Below are positions 3,498 to 10,037 of a stretch of DNA of 64,000 bases, in pieces (positions within the stretch are counted from its first letter, which is position 1; every line of letters begins with the position of its first letter). Origin of the DNA: Mucilaginibacter gotjawali (GTDB taxonomy: Bacteria > Bacteroidota > Bacteroidia > Sphingobacteriales > Sphingobacteriaceae); the NCBI RefSeq assembly GCF_002355435.1, contig NZ_AP017313.1:6138001-6202000 (forward strand), in the 5' to 3' direction. Under the pieces are notes generated by a model. That model saw nothing but the letters and a program-made list of their open reading frames with translations. It made no database searches and was not told the origin of the DNA. A program made the translations under genes and the position numbers.

Positions 3498-4505
3498 TTA
3501 TTCCGCTATCCAGATCGCATCGGTAAACCATTTCCGGCTGTCAAAAAAATGGTCAACCGGTTTAAATCCGGAACTGATGGCCATTTCGTTGGTTTGGATG
3601 ACAGAAAACTTTTGAGAAATCTCCATAAAAATATATTCATCCTTCAAAAAGCTAATGGTTTCAGCGCCAATGTTTACTTCCTGATCGCAGGTGCTTACCA
3701 GGTAACTTTTGCAGGCGCCGTTTTCGGGATCATAAGTAGGATAGTGTTCAAATTTAGCTATATCAAAATGACCATCCAGTTCCCGGTTGATGCGTTCCAG
3801 TAAATTAAGGTTAAACTTTTTAGTGATGCCCTCTTTATCATTATAGGCAGCCAATATAGTTTTTGGATTTTTTTTAAGGTCGAAACCAATCAGCAGCATA
3901 TCGCCTTTTGACAGATGCGCCCGCATGTTCCGGCAAAAATCTACAGCATCATCATGCTGCATATTGCCAATGTTTGATCCTAAAAACAGCACTACTTTGC
4001 GTTTATTTGAAGCAGCAGCAGCTCTTTCAAGCATTTCAAAATATTCGCCGTTCAGGCCTTTTATTTTAATTCCGGGCAAAGTTACCGGCAGGGTGATGTT
4101 TAGGTAGGAAATCACATTATCAGAAATATCAATCGGCAGATAAGTGAAACCGGCATTGTTTTCCAAAAGATAAGCTAAAAGATAGGCTGATTTGGTAGCA
4201 TCGCCGGCGCCTAACTCAATTAAATCAAAAGCATCTCCTTCCCCCATGATGGCCCCGCATATCTCAGCTGTTTTTTCGCCGAATATCTCCAGCTCACAGT
4301 TGGTGGGGTAATACTCTTCGCAGTTCATCAGGTCCTGGAAGAGTTTATCGCCAACGACGTCATAAAAATATTTAGAGTTTAAATATTTCGGTTGTGCATT
4401 TAAACCCGTTATCACATCCAGGTAAAACTGGCTGCTTTTTATTTTTTCAGGTCGGGTTATCCCGATAGCCATCGGGACAGCCTGCATGTTTTCAATGTTT
4501 TTCAT
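3498..4505 (-). CDS. egtD: L-histidine N-alpha-methyltransferase EgtD
   Basis: 335 residues, normal length for EgtD. The enzyme trimethylates histidine with three S-adenosylmethionine to give hercynine, the first step of ergothioneine synthesis. The SAM-binding motif LIELGAGDATKSAYLL and the family motif VLFLGSNIGNM are visible; the N-terminal PKYLNSKYFYD and LMNCEEYYPTNCELEI segments match the EgtD domain (DUF2260, TIGR03438 type). It is the last gene of a four-gene minus-strand operon, 21 bases after egtB. The start gives MKNIENMQ; no better start is seen. Confidence 0.92.
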   Translation of the reverse strand: MKNIENMQAVPMAIGITRPEKIKSSQFYLDVITGLNAQPKYLNSKYFYDVVGDKLFQDLMNCEEYYPTNCELEIFGEKTAEICGAIMGEGDAFDLIELGAGDATKSAYLLAYLLENNAGFTYLPIDISDNVISYLNITLPVTLPGIKIKGLNGEYFEMLERAAAASNKRKVVLFLGSNIGNMQHDDAVDFCRNMRAHLSKGDMLLIGFDLKKNPKTILAAYNDKEGITKKFNLNLLERINRELDGHFDIAKFEHYPTYDPENGACKSYLVSTCDQEVNIGAETISFLKDEYIFMEISQKFSVIQTNEMAISSGFKPVDHFFDSRKWFTDAIWIAE

Positions 4506-4526: not shown

Positions 4527-5705
4527 TTATTTGGCCAACCTAATGCCTGTAAACTGCCAGCGTAAATGTGTTTGAAAAAAGTTTCTATAGGTAACACGGC
4601 TATGCCCCGGAGGTGTTACTTCGGAAGCGCCGCGCAGCACCTTTTGATTTACCATAAATTTGCCATTGTATTCGCCAATGGCGCCGGGTGCTTTTACGAA
4701 ACCGGGATAAGGAAGGTAACTGCTTTCGGTCCATTCCCAGTTTTTGCCCCAGCTAAATTGGTTGGCGGCCGCTTCCCATTCAAATTCTGTTGGCAGCCTC
4801 AATGCTTTCCATGCCGCATAAGCATAGGCCTCGAAATAACTGATATGGCAAACCGGCTCTTTGGGATTCAATAGCCCCAGGCCATGATAGGAATACTGGT
4901 ACCACTCCCCGTCGATTAAATGCCAGTACATGGGCGATTCTATTTTATTGTTTTTTACCCAGTCCCAGCCTTCGGCATGCCAGTGCCTGAAATCATGATA
5001 ACCGCCTGCATTCATAAAATTCAGGTATTCGGCATTGGTTACCTGGTTCGGGCTGATCTCATAGGCCTGCAGGTAAACTTTATGGCGATTCAGTTCGTTG
5101 TCAAAACAAAAACCGTCGCCGGCAAACCCGATCTCATAGATATCTTCCTTTACGCTGATGAATTTTTCGTTCTCCACCCAATTAACCTTCGGCGAAACGT
5201 AATCCTTTGAATAGGCAGGAAAAAGCGGGTTATGGCCCAAAATGTATTTGATATCGGTGTATAATAGTTCCTGGTGCTGTTCCTCATGGTTCAGGCCAAG
5301 TATCAGCAACTCCTTTATTTCGTCACCAATACTTTCGTGCAAAAACTTTAGCATTGCCTCGTCCACATACTCCCGGTAACGGTAAATCTCCATTACTGTT
5401 GGCCGGCTCAGGTTACCCCTGTCGGTGCGGATCACCCGGTTTCCTACCGTTTCGTAGTAACTGTTGAATACATAGTTGTAATCGGGATTATATTCCCGGT
5501 AGCCCATAAAATAAGGCTTCAGGATAAAGGTTTCAAAAAACCAGGTTGTATGCCCGATATGCCATTTAGGCGGGCTGACGTCAACTACAGGCTGCACCAC
5601 ATAGTCCTCGGTCTGCAGGGGGCTGCATATCTGCTCTGTGCGTTTGCGAACCCCGATATATCGGGTTGCCAGATCACTTGAAATTATTTTTTCGGCTGTG
5701 TCCAT
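4527..5705 (-). CDS. egtB: ergothioneine biosynthesis protein EgtB (hercynine sulfoxide synthase)
   Basis: 392 residues. A non-haem iron enzyme that joins a thiol to hercynine with O2 to make the sulfoxide intermediate. The N-terminal DinB-like domain carries the three-His iron site: HIGHTTWFFETF and LNHEEQHQELLYTDI (HxxxHxE). The C-terminal formylglycine-enzyme-like fold follows, with NQVTNAEYLNFMN, LRLPTEFEWEAA, WGKNWEWTES and the end RWQFTGIRLAK. No gamma-glutamylcysteine ligase (EgtA) or amidase (EgtC) is in the cluster, so cysteine may be the sulfur donor; this is inference. Only 5 bases separate it from the upstream transporter gene. Confidence 0.92.
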   Translation of the reverse strand: MDTAEKIISSDLATRYIGVRKRTEQICSPLQTEDYVVQPVVDVSPPKWHIGHTTWFFETFILKPYFMGYREYNPDYNYVFNSYYETVGNRVIRTDRGNLSRPTVMEIYRYREYVDEAMLKFLHESIGDEIKELLILGLNHEEQHQELLYTDIKYILGHNPLFPAYSKDYVSPKVNWVENEKFISVKEDIYEIGFAGDGFCFDNELNRHKVYLQAYEISPNQVTNAEYLNFMNAGGYHDFRHWHAEGWDWVKNNKIESPMYWHLIDGEWYQYSYHGLGLLNPKEPVCHISYFEAYAYAAWKALRLPTEFEWEAAANQFSWGKNWEWTESSYLPYPGFVKAPGAIGEYNGKFMVNQKVLRGASEVTPPGHSRVTYRNFFQTHLRWQFTGIRLAK

Positions 5706-5710
5706 TGGTG

Positions 5711-7279
5711 TTACCTGTTATCCAAATATCGTTTCAGGTTAGAAATTGTTTTAATATTTAAATTTTTGGCCTGCTGCCTCCGCATCATCAAAGCATACGC
5801 ATTATTAAACCCGATTGGTTTTAGCCATTTGACATTATATTTTTTCTCAAATCCATCCTTTACATAAATATAGGTTGCCTGGCTGCCGGTGCTTACTGAA
5901 TCAATAACTTTAACCGGAGGCTGTAATATGGCCAGTAAACCTGTTCCTGTATATTCAGGGTACAGATCGATCTGGTCATTCATTAAAGCATCAAAGCATA
6001 TTTTTGTACCCCCCAGCCCTGTTTTGGTGGCAACATCGTAACGGGAATATCCTTTAATCAGCATGCTGTACATATTCGCCAGGATGTATTGTTCGCCAAA
6101 TATTTTCGACCCGATCCGTACCACACCTTCATTTCCATTTTGCGCCGGCCTCCATAATTTTTGTGAAACCAGGAAGTTTTTTGCCACTTTTTCAGGGCTT
6201 TGATGAAGGTAATCAGTTTGATAGTTCAGGGCGGTCATGGTGCTGTCGTTTATTTTCCCGGCTAACAAATTTAGTATTTTTTCTAACAATGCAAATTTTG
6301 TTAGTGAATTTTCTCTAACGATGGGTGCGGCGTAATATGGCGGAAAAATTCCTTTGTCATCTTTTAATACCACCAGGTCGTATGCCCTTAGCCTTCCATC
6401 AGTTGAATAACCGCTGATCACGTCGAGCTGTTTTTCGTAAGCGGCCTTATACATCACTGCATCACTGATCACTACGGTACGGATACGCAAGCCGTATTTG
6501 CTTTGCAGGCCCAGGTTACCATCGCGCCTGCCCATAAACTCCGGGGTGAACCCTGCCTTGAGTTTGCTGCCATAGGCAGATGGGATCCAGTAAAATGAGG
6601 ACAATAGAACAAGCAGCAGCGGCAGTATTATAGTAGCAGTTTTTAGTCTTTTTAGGTTGAGCTTTTGCAATCGCGACAGCAAAAAATCAAATAAAACAGC
6701 CAGCAATGCCGCCGGGATGGCGCCGGCCAGGATCATATTGGTATTGTTGAGCGAGATGCCACCGAAGATAAACTCACCCAGGCCGCCTGCAGCGATATAT
6801 GATGCCAGCGTCGCTACGCCTACAGTTATTACGGTGGCTGTGCGGATGCCCGCAAAGATCACCGGCATCGCCAGCGGCAGTTCCACCTTTTTTAATACCT
6901 GCCATTTGCTCATGCCCATAGCTACCGCGGCCTCTTTAACAGCAGCGTCAACCCCGGTTATCCCCGTAAAGGTGTTGCGGATGATGGGCAGTAAGGCATA
7001 AAGTAACAGGGCGGTAATAGCGGGTTTGGCCCCGATGCCCAAAACCGGGATCATAAAACCCAGCAAGGCTATGCTGGGGATGGTTTGTAATACGCCTGCA
7101 ACACCCAAAACCGGGCCGGAAAATCGTTGTCTCCGGCTGATAAATATGCCCAACGGTAAGCCAATAAGTACAGCAATGAACAGGGATATAAAAGTAAGCC
7201 CGATATGCTGAACGGTTTGTTCGGCAAGCTTGCCCGATTGCTGGCGCATAAAATCCCATAAAGATTGCTGCTCATTCAC
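5711..7279 (-). CDS. egtU: EgtU-like ABC permease fused to substrate-binding domain, binding domain apparently circularly permuted
   Basis: 522 residues. Residues 1-210 are an OpuCB/ProW-type permease with the EAA loop EAAVAMGMSKWQVLKK (117-131). After another helix (214-232) comes an extracytoplasmic quaternary-amine/ergothioneine-type binding domain. Its parts are in unusual order: the normally second half (KAGFTPEFMGRRDGNLGLQ at 241, YSTDGRLRAYDLVVL, FPPYYAAP) precedes the normally first half (GSKIFGEQYILANMY at 390, GGTKICFDAL, DLYPEYTGTGL, GFNNAYALMM at 491), and the protein ends where the halves are usually joined. Linkage to egtB/egtD and the close likeness to pneumococcal EgtU motifs, as I recall them, suggest ergothioneine or hercynine import; glycine betaine/choline remains possible. 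Confidence 0.78.
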   Translation of the reverse strand: MNEQQSLWDFMRQQSGKLAEQTVQHIGLTFISLFIAVLIGLPLGIFISRRQRFSGPVLGVAGVLQTIPSIALLGFMIPVLGIGAKPAITALLLYALLPIIRNTFTGITGVDAAVKEAAVAMGMSKWQVLKKVELPLAMPVIFAGIRTATVITVGVATLASYIAAGGLGEFIFGGISLNNTNMILAGAIPAALLAVLFDFLLSRLQKLNLKRLKTATIILPLLLVLLSSFYWIPSAYGSKLKAGFTPEFMGRRDGNLGLQSKYGLRIRTVVISDAVMYKAAYEKQLDVISGYSTDGRLRAYDLVVLKDDKGIFPPYYAAPIVRENSLTKFALLEKILNLLAGKINDSTMTALNYQTDYLHQSPEKVAKNFLVSQKLWRPAQNGNEGVVRIGSKIFGEQYILANMYSMLIKGYSRYDVATKTGLGGTKICFDALMNDQIDLYPEYTGTGLLAILQPPVKVIDSVSTGSQATYIYVKDGFEKKYNVKWLKPIGFNNAYALMMRRQQAKNLNIKTISNLKRYLDNR

Positions 7280-8243
7280 GGCTGTGCCCTTTCTGATATT
7301 GATAAAAAGCTGACATTAAAGTTTCAAAAGACACCGTCTTCATTTCCTTGTTTTCCAAATTTGCCATATTTAAGCGTTCAGCATTAAAAAATGCAGCCCG
7401 TTCGAAAACTGTCCATAAATCAGTTGTATAATTAACCAGTATGCCAGGCTGTTGCCCTTTTATCTCTTCATCTGAAAGTAAATGCCAGAGTGATTTAACC
7501 GTGATTGTTTTAAATTCCAGCAGTAGCCTTTGCTCTTTCAAAAATTCCTTTACAAAATCGTTTTTGGGCTTGAACAACAACGCTGATGGAGTGCCATTTT
7601 GGACAATTTCCCCTTTATCCATAATGCAAATGCGGTCGCCCAGTTCAAAGGCTTCCTGCACATCATGGGTAACCATAATAATGGTCTTTCTTTTCAGTTC
7701 ATCCAGCGCCTTAAACTCTGCCTGTATTTTTGAGCGGGTAACATTGTCCAGCGCGCCAAATGGTTCATCCATCAGCAATACCGGAGGGTCAGCCACCAAA
7801 GCCCTTGCCAGCCCTATGCGCTGTTGCTGGCCACCGCTTAACTCGCTGGGATAGGCGCTGAGGTGTTTTGTGGAGAGATGCAATTTTTCAAGTAATTCGC
7901 TGGTGCGTTTTTCTATCCGCTTTTTATCCCATTTTAACAGTTGCGGTACGATGGCAATATTTTCGGCAACGGTATAATGCGGAAAAAGACCGTTATTTTG
8001 CAGTACGTAGCCAATGCCGCGCCGCAATACTTCGGGCTGTTGCTCCAGGATGTTTTTTCCGTCGATAAAAATTTTACCTGATGTTGGCTCAATAAGCCTG
8101 TTGATCATTTTAAGTGTGGTGGTTTTGCCGCAGCCGCTGGTGCCCAAAAGGATAAGATTCTCCTGCTCCTCCACTTCGAACGAAATGCCGTTTACGGCTT
8201 TAACTTTGCCAAAGTGTTTGCTGAGCTGTTCAACCTTAATCAT
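7272..8243 (-). CDS. egtV: EgtV-like ABC transporter ATP-binding protein
   Basis: 323 residues, ATPase partner of the fused permease encoded next, whose start it overlaps by 8 bases. It has Walker A GTSGCGKTTTLK, signature LSGGQQQRIGLARAL, Walker B VLLMDEPFGALD and the switch His in IIMVTHD. It belongs to the OpuCA/ProV group (quaternary-amine uptake) but its C-terminal 80 residues (after about 240) do not show clear tandem CBS domains, the usual osmosensing module. That fits an importer not driven by osmotic stress. First gene of the egtV-egtU-egtB-egtD transcription unit. Confidence 0.8.
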   Translation of the reverse strand: MIKVEQLSKHFGKVKAVNGISFEVEEQENLILLGTSGCGKTTTLKMINRLIEPTSGKIFIDGKNILEQQPEVLRRGIGYVLQNNGLFPHYTVAENIAIVPQLLKWDKKRIEKRTSELLEKLHLSTKHLSAYPSELSGGQQQRIGLARALVADPPVLLMDEPFGALDNVTRSKIQAEFKALDELKRKTIIMVTHDVQEAFELGDRICIMDKGEIVQNGTPSALLFKPKNDFVKEFLKEQRLLLEFKTITVKSLWHLLSDEEIKGQQPGILVNYTTDLWTVFERAAFFNAERLNMANLENKEMKTVSFETLMSAFYQYQKGHSRE

Positions 8244-8368: not shown

Positions 8369-9754
8369 TTATGTATCCATCGCCATAAAAAGGTTATTTA
8401 ACGATTCGGCAAAAAGCGGGTGGGCGAATACAAAATAGCGGATCTCATCATAAGTAATGCCGCCTGCCATGGCCATTTGCAGCACCGTCATGGTTTCGCC
8501 GCCTTCAGGGCCTAAAATAGTGGCGCCCAGAATCTGTTTGGTATCCGGATCAACAATGGCTTTCATGAAGCCGCGGGTATCGCCTGTCTCAATGGCGCGG
8601 GCAACATAAGCCATGGGCAGTTTTGCTACTTTATAATTCAGTTTACGTTTTTTGGCCTCAGTTTCATTGATGCCGATACAGCCCAGTTGCGGATCGGTAA
8701 ACATACAGTAAGGCACGGGACGGTCCTTTATGCTGAGATTCTCATTTTTTACCAGGTTACGGTAAACAATGGTATAGTCGTTATAACTGATGTGCGTAAA
8801 GGCCGGGCCGCCTTTTACATCGCCCAAAGCGTAAATGCCTTTAATATTGGTTTCCAGTTTATCATTTACCTTAACGTTGCCGCGTTCATCCATTTCAACC
8901 CCGGTTGCCGGCAGGTTTAAAGTGGCCGTTTGTGGCACGCGCCCCACGGCAACCAGTACGTGCGAGCACCTGACCTTTTTTTCCGACCCATTAATTAACA
9001 CTGTTGCGGTGATTTTTTCACCCTGTTTCTTTTTGATTTTTGATGTTGAGGCATTGCAAAGAATGGTGATATCCTCTTCCTGTAATATTTTGGTAAGCTC
9101 TTCCGAAACATCTTCGTCCTCACGGGATACGATCCGGCCTGACTTTTCGACAATAGTAACCTTGCTGCCAAAGCGGCTGAACATTTGCCCAAACTCCAGG
9201 CCGATATAATTGCCACCGATCACCAGCAAATGTTCGGGCACTTTATCCAGGTCCATAATGGTGGTTGAGGTTAGATAGTCAATGTCGTTTAAGCCTTCAA
9301 TTTCAGGAATAAAGGGTTTGGCGCCGGTATTGATAAAAAATAAGTCGGCATTAAACTCCTTTATCCTGCCGCTGTTCAGTTTTACCGAAATGGTTTTGTC
9401 ACCCGTAAAGGTAGCTTCGCCGAAGATGACATCGAGGTTTCTGGTAGCCTCCAAGCCTTTCTGGCTGCCATTCCTGAATTGGTGAACGATGGCGTCCTTT
9501 CTCTTTTTGATCTTTGCCATGTCCACCGAAAAGCCTTTTATTTTTACACCGAGCGCCTGGCTGTTATCGGCCATATAAGCCATTTTTGCCGAAGCCACCA
9601 TGGTTTTTGTGGGCGTGCAGCCATCATTTACACAGGTGCCCCCGATCCAGCGTTTTTCTATCAGCGCCGTTCTCTTGCCCGCGAGGGCCAGTTTTTTGGC
9701 CAGCGGTCCGCCTGCCTGGCCTGATCCGATAACTATTGCATCGTATTGTTTCAT
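8369..9754 (-). CDS. FAD-dependent pyridine nucleotide-disulfide oxidoreductase
   Basis: 461 residues. N-terminal FAD-binding GSGQAGGPLAKKLA, redox-active disulfide in GGTCVNDGCTPTKT, second nucleotide site VIGGNYIGLEFGQMF, and FAD motif GIYALGDVKGG. The C-terminus has FAHPLFAESLNN, the dimer-interface His region of dihydrolipoamide dehydrogenase/mercuric reductase relatives. It lacks the N-terminal metal-binding domain and the C-terminal Cys pair of true MerA, so mercury reduction is unlikely; a small-molecule disulfide is more plausible. It sits 125 bases upstream of the egt operon on the same strand and 1 base after the DUF427 gene. A role in thiol/thione recycling is only a suggestion. 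Confidence 0.8.
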   Translation of the reverse strand: MKQYDAIVIGSGQAGGPLAKKLALAGKRTALIEKRWIGGTCVNDGCTPTKTMVASAKMAYMADNSQALGVKIKGFSVDMAKIKKRKDAIVHQFRNGSQKGLEATRNLDVIFGEATFTGDKTISVKLNSGRIKEFNADLFFINTGAKPFIPEIEGLNDIDYLTSTTIMDLDKVPEHLLVIGGNYIGLEFGQMFSRFGSKVTIVEKSGRIVSREDEDVSEELTKILQEEDITILCNASTSKIKKKQGEKITATVLINGSEKKVRCSHVLVAVGRVPQTATLNLPATGVEMDERGNVKVNDKLETNIKGIYALGDVKGGPAFTHISYNDYTIVYRNLVKNENLSIKDRPVPYCMFTDPQLGCIGINETEAKKRKLNYKVAKLPMAYVARAIETGDTRGFMKAIVDPDTKQILGATILGPEGGETMTVLQMAMAGGITYDEIRYFVFAHPLFAESLNNLFMAMDT

Positions 9755-9755
9755 A

Positions 9756-10037
9756 TCAGGCTATTACTTTTACACCTTTCCAAAAGGCGATGTAATCTTT
9801 AATTTGAGCCGCCGCAGGGCTCGGATCCGGGTAAAACCACGCAGCATCCAGGTTTTCTTTTCCGTTTACTTCAAGCGTGTGGTAGGATGCCTTACCCTTC
9901 CAAATGCAGGTGGTATGTGCAGGCGAGGGCCTCAAATATTCGGTATTAACACTCTCTTTCGGGAAATAATGGTTATTCTCAACTACAATGGTGTCATCGC
10001 TTTCGGCAATCACCTGGTCGTTCCATATTGCTTTCAT
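9756..10037 (-). CDS. DUF427 domain protein
   Basis: 93 residues covering one DUF427 domain: MKAIWNDQVIAESDDTIVVE, YFPKESVN, CIWKGKASYHTL and AAWFYPDPSPAA are family hallmarks. The fold is a small beta-barrel of unknown biochemical role. It is separated from the following oxidoreductase gene by one base, so both are probably on one mRNA. No signal peptide. Confidence 0.85.
   Translation of the reverse strand: MKAIWNDQVIAESDDTIVVENNHYFPKESVNTEYLRPSPAHTTCIWKGKASYHTLEVNGKENLDAAWFYPDPSPAAAQIKDYIAFWKGVKVIA

Follow-up and report, generated by a model that had tools for sequence, protein, structure and literature searches.

The window (the whole 64,000-nt stretch of Mucilaginibacter gotjawali DNA that was analysed) carries a run of six genes on the minus strand, encoding a DUF427 protein, an FAD oxidoreductase, an ATPase, a fusion of a permease with a substrate-binding domain (SBD), EgtB and EgtD. 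The fusion gene (5711..7279, minus strand) starts with GTG at 7279, stops at 5711-5713 and encodes 522 amino acids. It is preceded by the gene of a ProV-type importer ATPase (7272..8243, minus strand; TIGR01186, 308.5 bits against a cut-off of 326.6), the end of which overlaps the start of the permease-SBD gene by 8 nt, and followed by the genes of the ergothioneine biosynthesis protein EgtB (4527..5705, minus strand; TIGR03440, 527.5 bits, cut-off 360) and of the histidine N-methyltransferase EgtD (3498..4505, minus strand), which scores far over the cut-off of PF10017 (320.9 bits) and slightly under that of TIGR03438 (282.8 bits, cut-off 290.9). The same gene run includes a small DUF427 protein (9756..10037, minus strand; Pfam) and an FAD/pyridine-nucleotide oxidoreductase (8369..9754, minus strand; Pfam and NCBIfam), a MerA/lipoamide-dehydrogenase-like product whose best model, NF004992, scores under its cut-off. 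A search of the M. gotjawali genome revealed a single match to the permease-SBD protein and no OpuAC-family match outside its frame; the closest named relatives are proteins of Mucilaginibacter MAGs (93-94% identity).

The domains of the 522-residue protein follow each other in the order permease, SBD second half, SBD first half. The permease part (about residues 1-208; 6656..7279, minus strand) was assigned to BPD_transp_1 (PF00528), with the ProW/ChoW permease models of NCBIfam scoring under their cut-offs, and leads into a predicted last membrane helix (about residues 209-231; 6587..6655, minus strand) that would form the tether into lobe D2 of the SBD, as called from a hydrophobic stretch and a full-length model of low confidence there. 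When the protein was compared with PDB chains using phmmer, the best matches were Streptococcus pneumoniae EgtUC entries, aligned in two swapped pieces: residues 239-375 (6155..6565, minus strand) correspond to EgtUC chain residues 138-274, and residues 389-517 to chain residues 10-134, with 5 residues beyond the last match (5714..6115, minus strand). The two pieces together make up a nearly complete EgtUC domain, without duplication, and a new linker of about 13 residues (about residues 376-388; 6116..6154, minus strand) joins the old C- and N-termini. These boundaries agree to within 5 residues with the first-pass annotation, which had placed the second half first (241-378) and the first half last (385-522). 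Similarly, the Pfam OpuAC profile (PF04069) matches in two stretches, above its curated cut-off (177.5 bits against 21.2); the best stretch aligns protein residues 235-369 with profile positions 111-255, and profile positions 3-113 are found downstream in the same frame.

Undoing the swap in a permutation-aware alignment, a check proposed with the first-pass annotation, raised the local alignment score against pneumococcal EgtUC from 330 in native order to 525 at the best rotation, which may start anywhere in residues 378-389 and yields 115 identical residues in an alignment of 262 (44%). Chance is excluded as the origin of this gain: the maximum score over 100 shuffles with 10 rotations each was 52, and a control EgtU-type SBD from Niallia scored best unrotated (765). 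A frame or assembly artefact was ruled out because 113 distinct permuted SBD sequences, in 113 loci, have the same order. Taken together, a true circular permutation fits these data best. We hereafter denote the permuted architecture permease/C-half/N-half as P-C-N, and the others as N-C-P (N-half/C-half/permease) and P-N-C (permease/N-half/C-half).

Lobe D1 of EgtUC comprises residues 233-331 and 445-506 and lobe D2 residues 341-432 (PMC9732360). With the numbering anchored at chain residue 13 (K242), alignment places the entry of the permuted chain at EgtUC residue 367 and its end at about 363, both in D2. The SBD is permuted inside this lobe at a point that separates the 'ISxLK' helix from the 'LKAGFT' strand, with the old termini bridged by a linker whose gap is 11-22 residues in the 113 permuted sequences. 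The first-pass annotation had spoken of swapped halves and of related lobe swaps; the swap stands, but halves and lobes do not coincide, the cut sitting inside D2. Its suggestion that the membrane tether attaches at a different lobe agrees with the EgtUC numbering, according to which the tether is predicted to shift from D1 to D2, leaving D1 continuous and D2 split. The gap between permease and SBD spans 27-42 residues in P-C-N compared with 30-55 residues in three P-N-C proteins.

The architectures were surveyed in a set of distinct SBD sequences comprising 113 P-C-N (frames of 472-568 amino acids), 23 N-C-P, 3 P-N-C and 4 unfused N-C proteins; the set is biased, the window protein having served as the main bait, and most of the 113 come from one relative scan, mainly from Mucilaginibacter. 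A full-length in-line match was found in 22 of 395 genomes evenly sampled from the phylum, and a second set of 395 genomes, drawn evenly from the class, gave further matches and one more family, so that P-C-N proteins are present in seven numbered families (f1, f3, f9, f10, f24, f34 and f56) across the two samples. Another 31 genomes of the phylum sample encode a frame of 484-601 amino acids with a permease match (E<1e-39) and an SBD that is not in line. All 23 of the loci taken from these for inspection are N-C-P and five more read as N-C-P from match coordinates; in the match list, which stops short of weak scores, two have the C-half immediately before the permease and no entry for the N-half, and one (G360) has an entry for the permease alone. 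Since this second Bacteroidota lineage (L160-L182) carries a normally ordered SBD in front of the permease, the permuted order is not common to all egt-linked importers of Bacteroidota, a point on which the first-pass annotation had called for a check. Outside Bacteroidota, the three fused relatives that were found, from Niallia, Levilactobacillus and a Fusobacteria plasmid (phyla Bacillota and Fusobacteriota), have the normal half order as P-N-C.

Both genome samples were of Bacteroidota, and the permuted order could occur in other phyla. A junction-crossing query (residues 300-450) was compared with plasmid records, and in the best 25 rows and a spread of 60, from 306 records, none passes from half to half: rows with two pieces cover about 780-870 nt, compared with the roughly 450 expected of a permuted protein, and rows with a single piece stop at query residue 89 or before, or begin at 79 or later. 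A scan of viral contigs for relatives found none. One permuted gene, in L145 (G080), has a TAA inside the frame that was matched and may therefore be broken or misassembled.

To compare the ligand pockets, 14 EgtUC positions were read from 26 P-C-N, 23 N-C-P and 4 unfused proteins. Twelve positions are invariant in 26 of 26 P-C-N sequences (K242, G274, T275, Y293, T296, F337, N339, Y341, E375, R379, Y419 and Y443), among them the cage positions 293, 339, 341, 419 and 443 and the contacts 242, 275, 296, 375 and 379; position 243 varies, and position 244 is F in 22 sequences and Q in 4. The pocket is complete by these residues. The four proteins with Gln at 244 are f24 members (L155 and L157-L159), in which a shift of ligand is possible. 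The N-C-P proteins (n=23) agree with the P-C-N pocket and have F at 244, with exceptions at 243 and, in four of them, S at 275.

The window protein possesses the aromatic cage of EgtU (position 293 together with N339, Y341, Y419 and Y443), with Tyr at 293, and the contacts K242, T275, T296, E375 and R379. EgtU specificity for ergothioneine has been attributed to G244 and a Y-to-F switch (PMC9732360); these determinants, G244 and F293 with Y337, are missing from the window protein because it has Phe/Tyr/Phe at 244/293/337. The first-pass label 'EgtU-like' accordingly holds for fold and sequence family, but not for the published specificity residues. The same F/Y/F combination is found in the glycine-betaine binder AfProX, and ergothioneine may therefore be bound weakly or not at all. 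At residue 339, where P-C-N proteins have Asn, AfProX has D109 (PMC10087775). The contacts shared with EgtUC do not single out a ligand, since N339, K242, T296, R379 and Y443 are present in four of four unfused relatives too and E375 in two of four.

As in EgtU, a single chain holds both permease and SBD, and a ProV-type ATPase is encoded next to it; the importer is well supported as being tied to genomes with ergothioneine genes. EgtD, called by a PF10017 match at E<1e-80 in the 395-genome phylum sample, is encoded in 22 of 22 P-C-N genomes compared with 106 of 373 others, and in 30 of 31 genomes with other single-chain (N-C-P-type) proteins compared with 76 of the 342 remaining genomes (Fisher P=5e-12 for P-C-N and 4e-15 for N-C-P-type genomes, with relatedness ignored). 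Within neighbourhoods of 9-14 kb, which cover 17 of the 22 P-C-N genomes, EgtD was found at 11 of 17 P-C-N and 6 of 23 N-C-P loci; the six P-C-N loci that lack it belong to a set of neighbourhoods 12-14 kb in size.

A reading that concerns the ligand alone and leaves the permutation untouched is that of a general osmoprotectant (glycine betaine/choline) importer merely adjoining egt genes. The AfProX-type residues at 244, 293 and 337, the Pfam and NCBIfam matches of the SBD to betaine-type families and the presence of the EgtUC-shared contacts in unfused relatives speak for this reading; we nevertheless regard it as unlikely in view of the EgtD counts and of a link to EgtD that holds also where the genes are apart, and Asn at position 339 as in EgtUC, rather than Asp as in AfProX, is a weak further argument, unfused relatives also having Asn. 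Most likely, the transporter is functional and imports ergothioneine or a related betaine; we consider it probable that the system belongs to the type I ABC importers of the EgtU/OpuC kind, with a fused SBD permuted inside D2 and with ergothioneine, hercynine or a close betaine as its ligand. In such an importer, the permuted SBD would still fold as a two-lobe clamp and bind a ligand with a quaternary amine inside the usual aromatic cage, the last permease helix would anchor D2 instead of D1, and the closed clamp would dock on the permease dimer to which it is fused, with import powered by the adjacent ATPase. In this way, cells that make ergothioneine may take up or recapture it, the hercynine from which it is made, or a close betaine.

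The fold of the SBD was predicted with AlphaFold2 from 81 SBDs (the window and loci L004-L083), giving a model with a pLDDT of 85.2 and a pTM of 0.85, to be read with the caveat that OpuAC may be in the training data of the program. In a Foldseek search of the PDB, the top five of 1065 matches all aligned the model end to end with Bacillus subtilis OpuAC (best E=2.6e-12; 266-298 columns, 14-15% identity, TM-score by model length 0.58-0.63), whereas the highest TM-score by model length in the remaining 45 of the best 50 was 0.42. Six EgtUC chains matched at 48-49% identity over only 136-140 columns, that is, one half, and the EgtUC chains 9egi_B and 9egj_B over 326-327 columns at 11-12% identity and an rmsd of 6.8-8.2, apparently out of register. 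Likewise, VIA-align matched model residues 6-285 to OpuAC residues 12-272 (Z=19.7, 242 residues, rmsd 3.5, 15% identity); the next family among the matches listed reached a Z of 9.5, and EgtUC was absent from the best 50 entries. The predicted structure is consistent with the expectation of the first-pass annotation that the fold is kept. A full-length model had a pLDDT of 60.4 overall with a poor membrane part, in which the lobes could not be placed on the membrane.

B. subtilis OpuAC (2b4l) belongs to a set of glycine-betaine binding proteins for which circular permutation has been reported (PMC2395249). Its half order equals that of the window protein, C-half then N-half with the same cut, and the precedent among OpuAC proteins named in the first-pass annotation is right; in the literature searches, the accompanying term 'domain dislocation' returned nothing with OpuAC and, with glycine betaine, nothing on these transporters by title. 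By sequence, the window SBD lies outside the OpuAC group (14-15% identity), scoring 53 against Lactobacillus plantarum OpuAC (57 rotated), which is the level of shuffled sequences. L. plantarum OpuAC itself is collinear with 2b4l, but its alignments to 3l6g and 7ahc each fall into two swapped pieces; this swapped match to Lactococcus lactis OpuAC (3l6g), which thus keeps the EgtUC-type order, indicates that B. subtilis OpuAC has unpermuted relatives of its own.

The shared order, the shared cut site and the end-to-end fold match would also be expected if the permuted order were ancestral, or inherited in common with B. subtilis OpuAC, and no separate event had taken place. We judge this very improbable, given the 14-15% identity to OpuAC, compared with 44% over 262 residues to EgtUC, which is unpermuted, the unpermuted relatives of OpuAC and the shuffle-level score against L. 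plantarum OpuAC. The same cut in two SBD groups that differ in sequence is most simply explained by two events, and an end-to-end fit to OpuAC at 15% identity together with a 48% match to EgtUC over one half suggests that the fold was probably permuted twice, the swap probably falling at the same loop each time.

The main tree was built from the permease and both halves (52 rows, unfused proteins left out). The 26 sampled P-C-N sequences lie on one side of a branch (91/86), as do the N-C-P sequences (100/98), and the nearest row outside P-C-N is the P-N-C protein of the Fusobacteria plasmid (94/88), whose placement is unsure because of its long branch. The single-half trees agree on N-C-P; for P-C-N, the N-half tree has a single branch (90) that sets the group apart, but the C-half tree requires two changes. 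A permease-only tree that includes unfused proteins does not unite P-C-N (three changes) and is unreliable, with long branches. The two changes in the C-half tree are what a chimera, with halves from two different binding domains, could account for, but such an origin is scarcely credible in the face of the N-half tree, of halves that are complementary with no large part missing or doubled, of identities of the N- and C-halves to 51 relatives of the window protein that correlate at 0.96, and of pocket residues from both halves that fit one pocket. The halves score 38 against each other (shuffled mean 30) and are not evident copies of one another. The circular permutation of one SBD proposed in the first-pass annotation is upheld by halves with the same relatives that jointly complete one pocket, by the normal order of the three fused relatives outside Bacteroidota and by the gain on rotation.

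The simplest reading of the trees is a single permutation from a P-N-C ancestor, with N-C-P as a separate rearrangement; the support for the branch of this one origin (91/86) is modest. Circular permutants classically arise through tandem duplication of a domain, here the SBD, followed by loss of the outer halves, and we infer this route for P-C-N. No doubled-SBD intermediate was present among the loci examined, in which no ORF had one half matched twice above 15 bits; apparent double half matches in L140-L142 were the same matches counted in two result tables. Overall, it is likely that two independent permutations struck the same loop of this fold, one in B. subtilis-type OpuAC and the other at the root of the Bacteroidota EgtU-like clade, and that this clade fixed the permutation in a membrane-fused SBD with a tether on the opposite lobe, keeping the pocket and the tie to ergothioneine synthesis. 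The SBD family and the type of permutation are known; the permutation is seen here in a membrane-fused form and is probably independent. Among the titles and abstract openings listed for EgtU, permuted OpuAC/ProX, permuted binding proteins and egt in Bacteroidetes or with transporters, none describes a permuted EgtU-type SBD.

The window importer resembles EgtU (EgtUBC) of S. pneumoniae in its permease-SBD fusion, neighbouring ATPase, aromatic cage positions and 44% SBD identity after rotation, but differs in its swapped half order, its predicted tether on D2 and the change of G244/F293/Y337 to F/Y/F; it also adjoins egtB and egtD, unlike EgtU, which was studied in cells that do not synthesize ergothioneine (PMC9732360). 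B. subtilis OpuAC shares the half order, the cut site and the end-to-end fold, yet is a separate, lipid-anchored protein with a Trp cage (PMC2861598, PMC9732360) and 14-15% identity. The Bacteroidota SBD-permease fusions (L160-L182) have the same residues at 12 of 14 pocket positions (275 in 19 of 23; 243 varies) and the same tie to EgtD, but a normal half order, the SBD ahead of the permease and a position on a separate side of a branch (100/98). OpuA of L. lactis is likewise a fused permease-SBD, and the two permeases match each other; in contrast to the window protein, it has a normal half order, a Trp cage and activation by ionic strength (PMC2861598).

According to a 2022 survey, close EgtU homologues occur nearly only in Firmicutes (PMC9732360); the present family extends EgtU-like importers to Bacteroidota with ergothioneine genes. 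With three architectures in one transporter family, it also provides a natural experiment on whether the choice of the membrane-tied lobe in a fused SBD matters, and it points to a loop at which permutation of the SBD fold is repeatable, which is useful for biosensor design.

Two further genes recur at these loci. The FAD oxidoreductase gene also adjoins the ATPase gene in the close relatives L143-L146. A DUF427 (PF04248) gene is repeatedly located near these importers or egt genes (the window, L143, L152, L155, L157, L159, L176 and L186), some of the matches being weak (35-54 bits); in Rhizobium (L202), a DUF427 gene at 6768-7397 adjoins a betaine-type importer.
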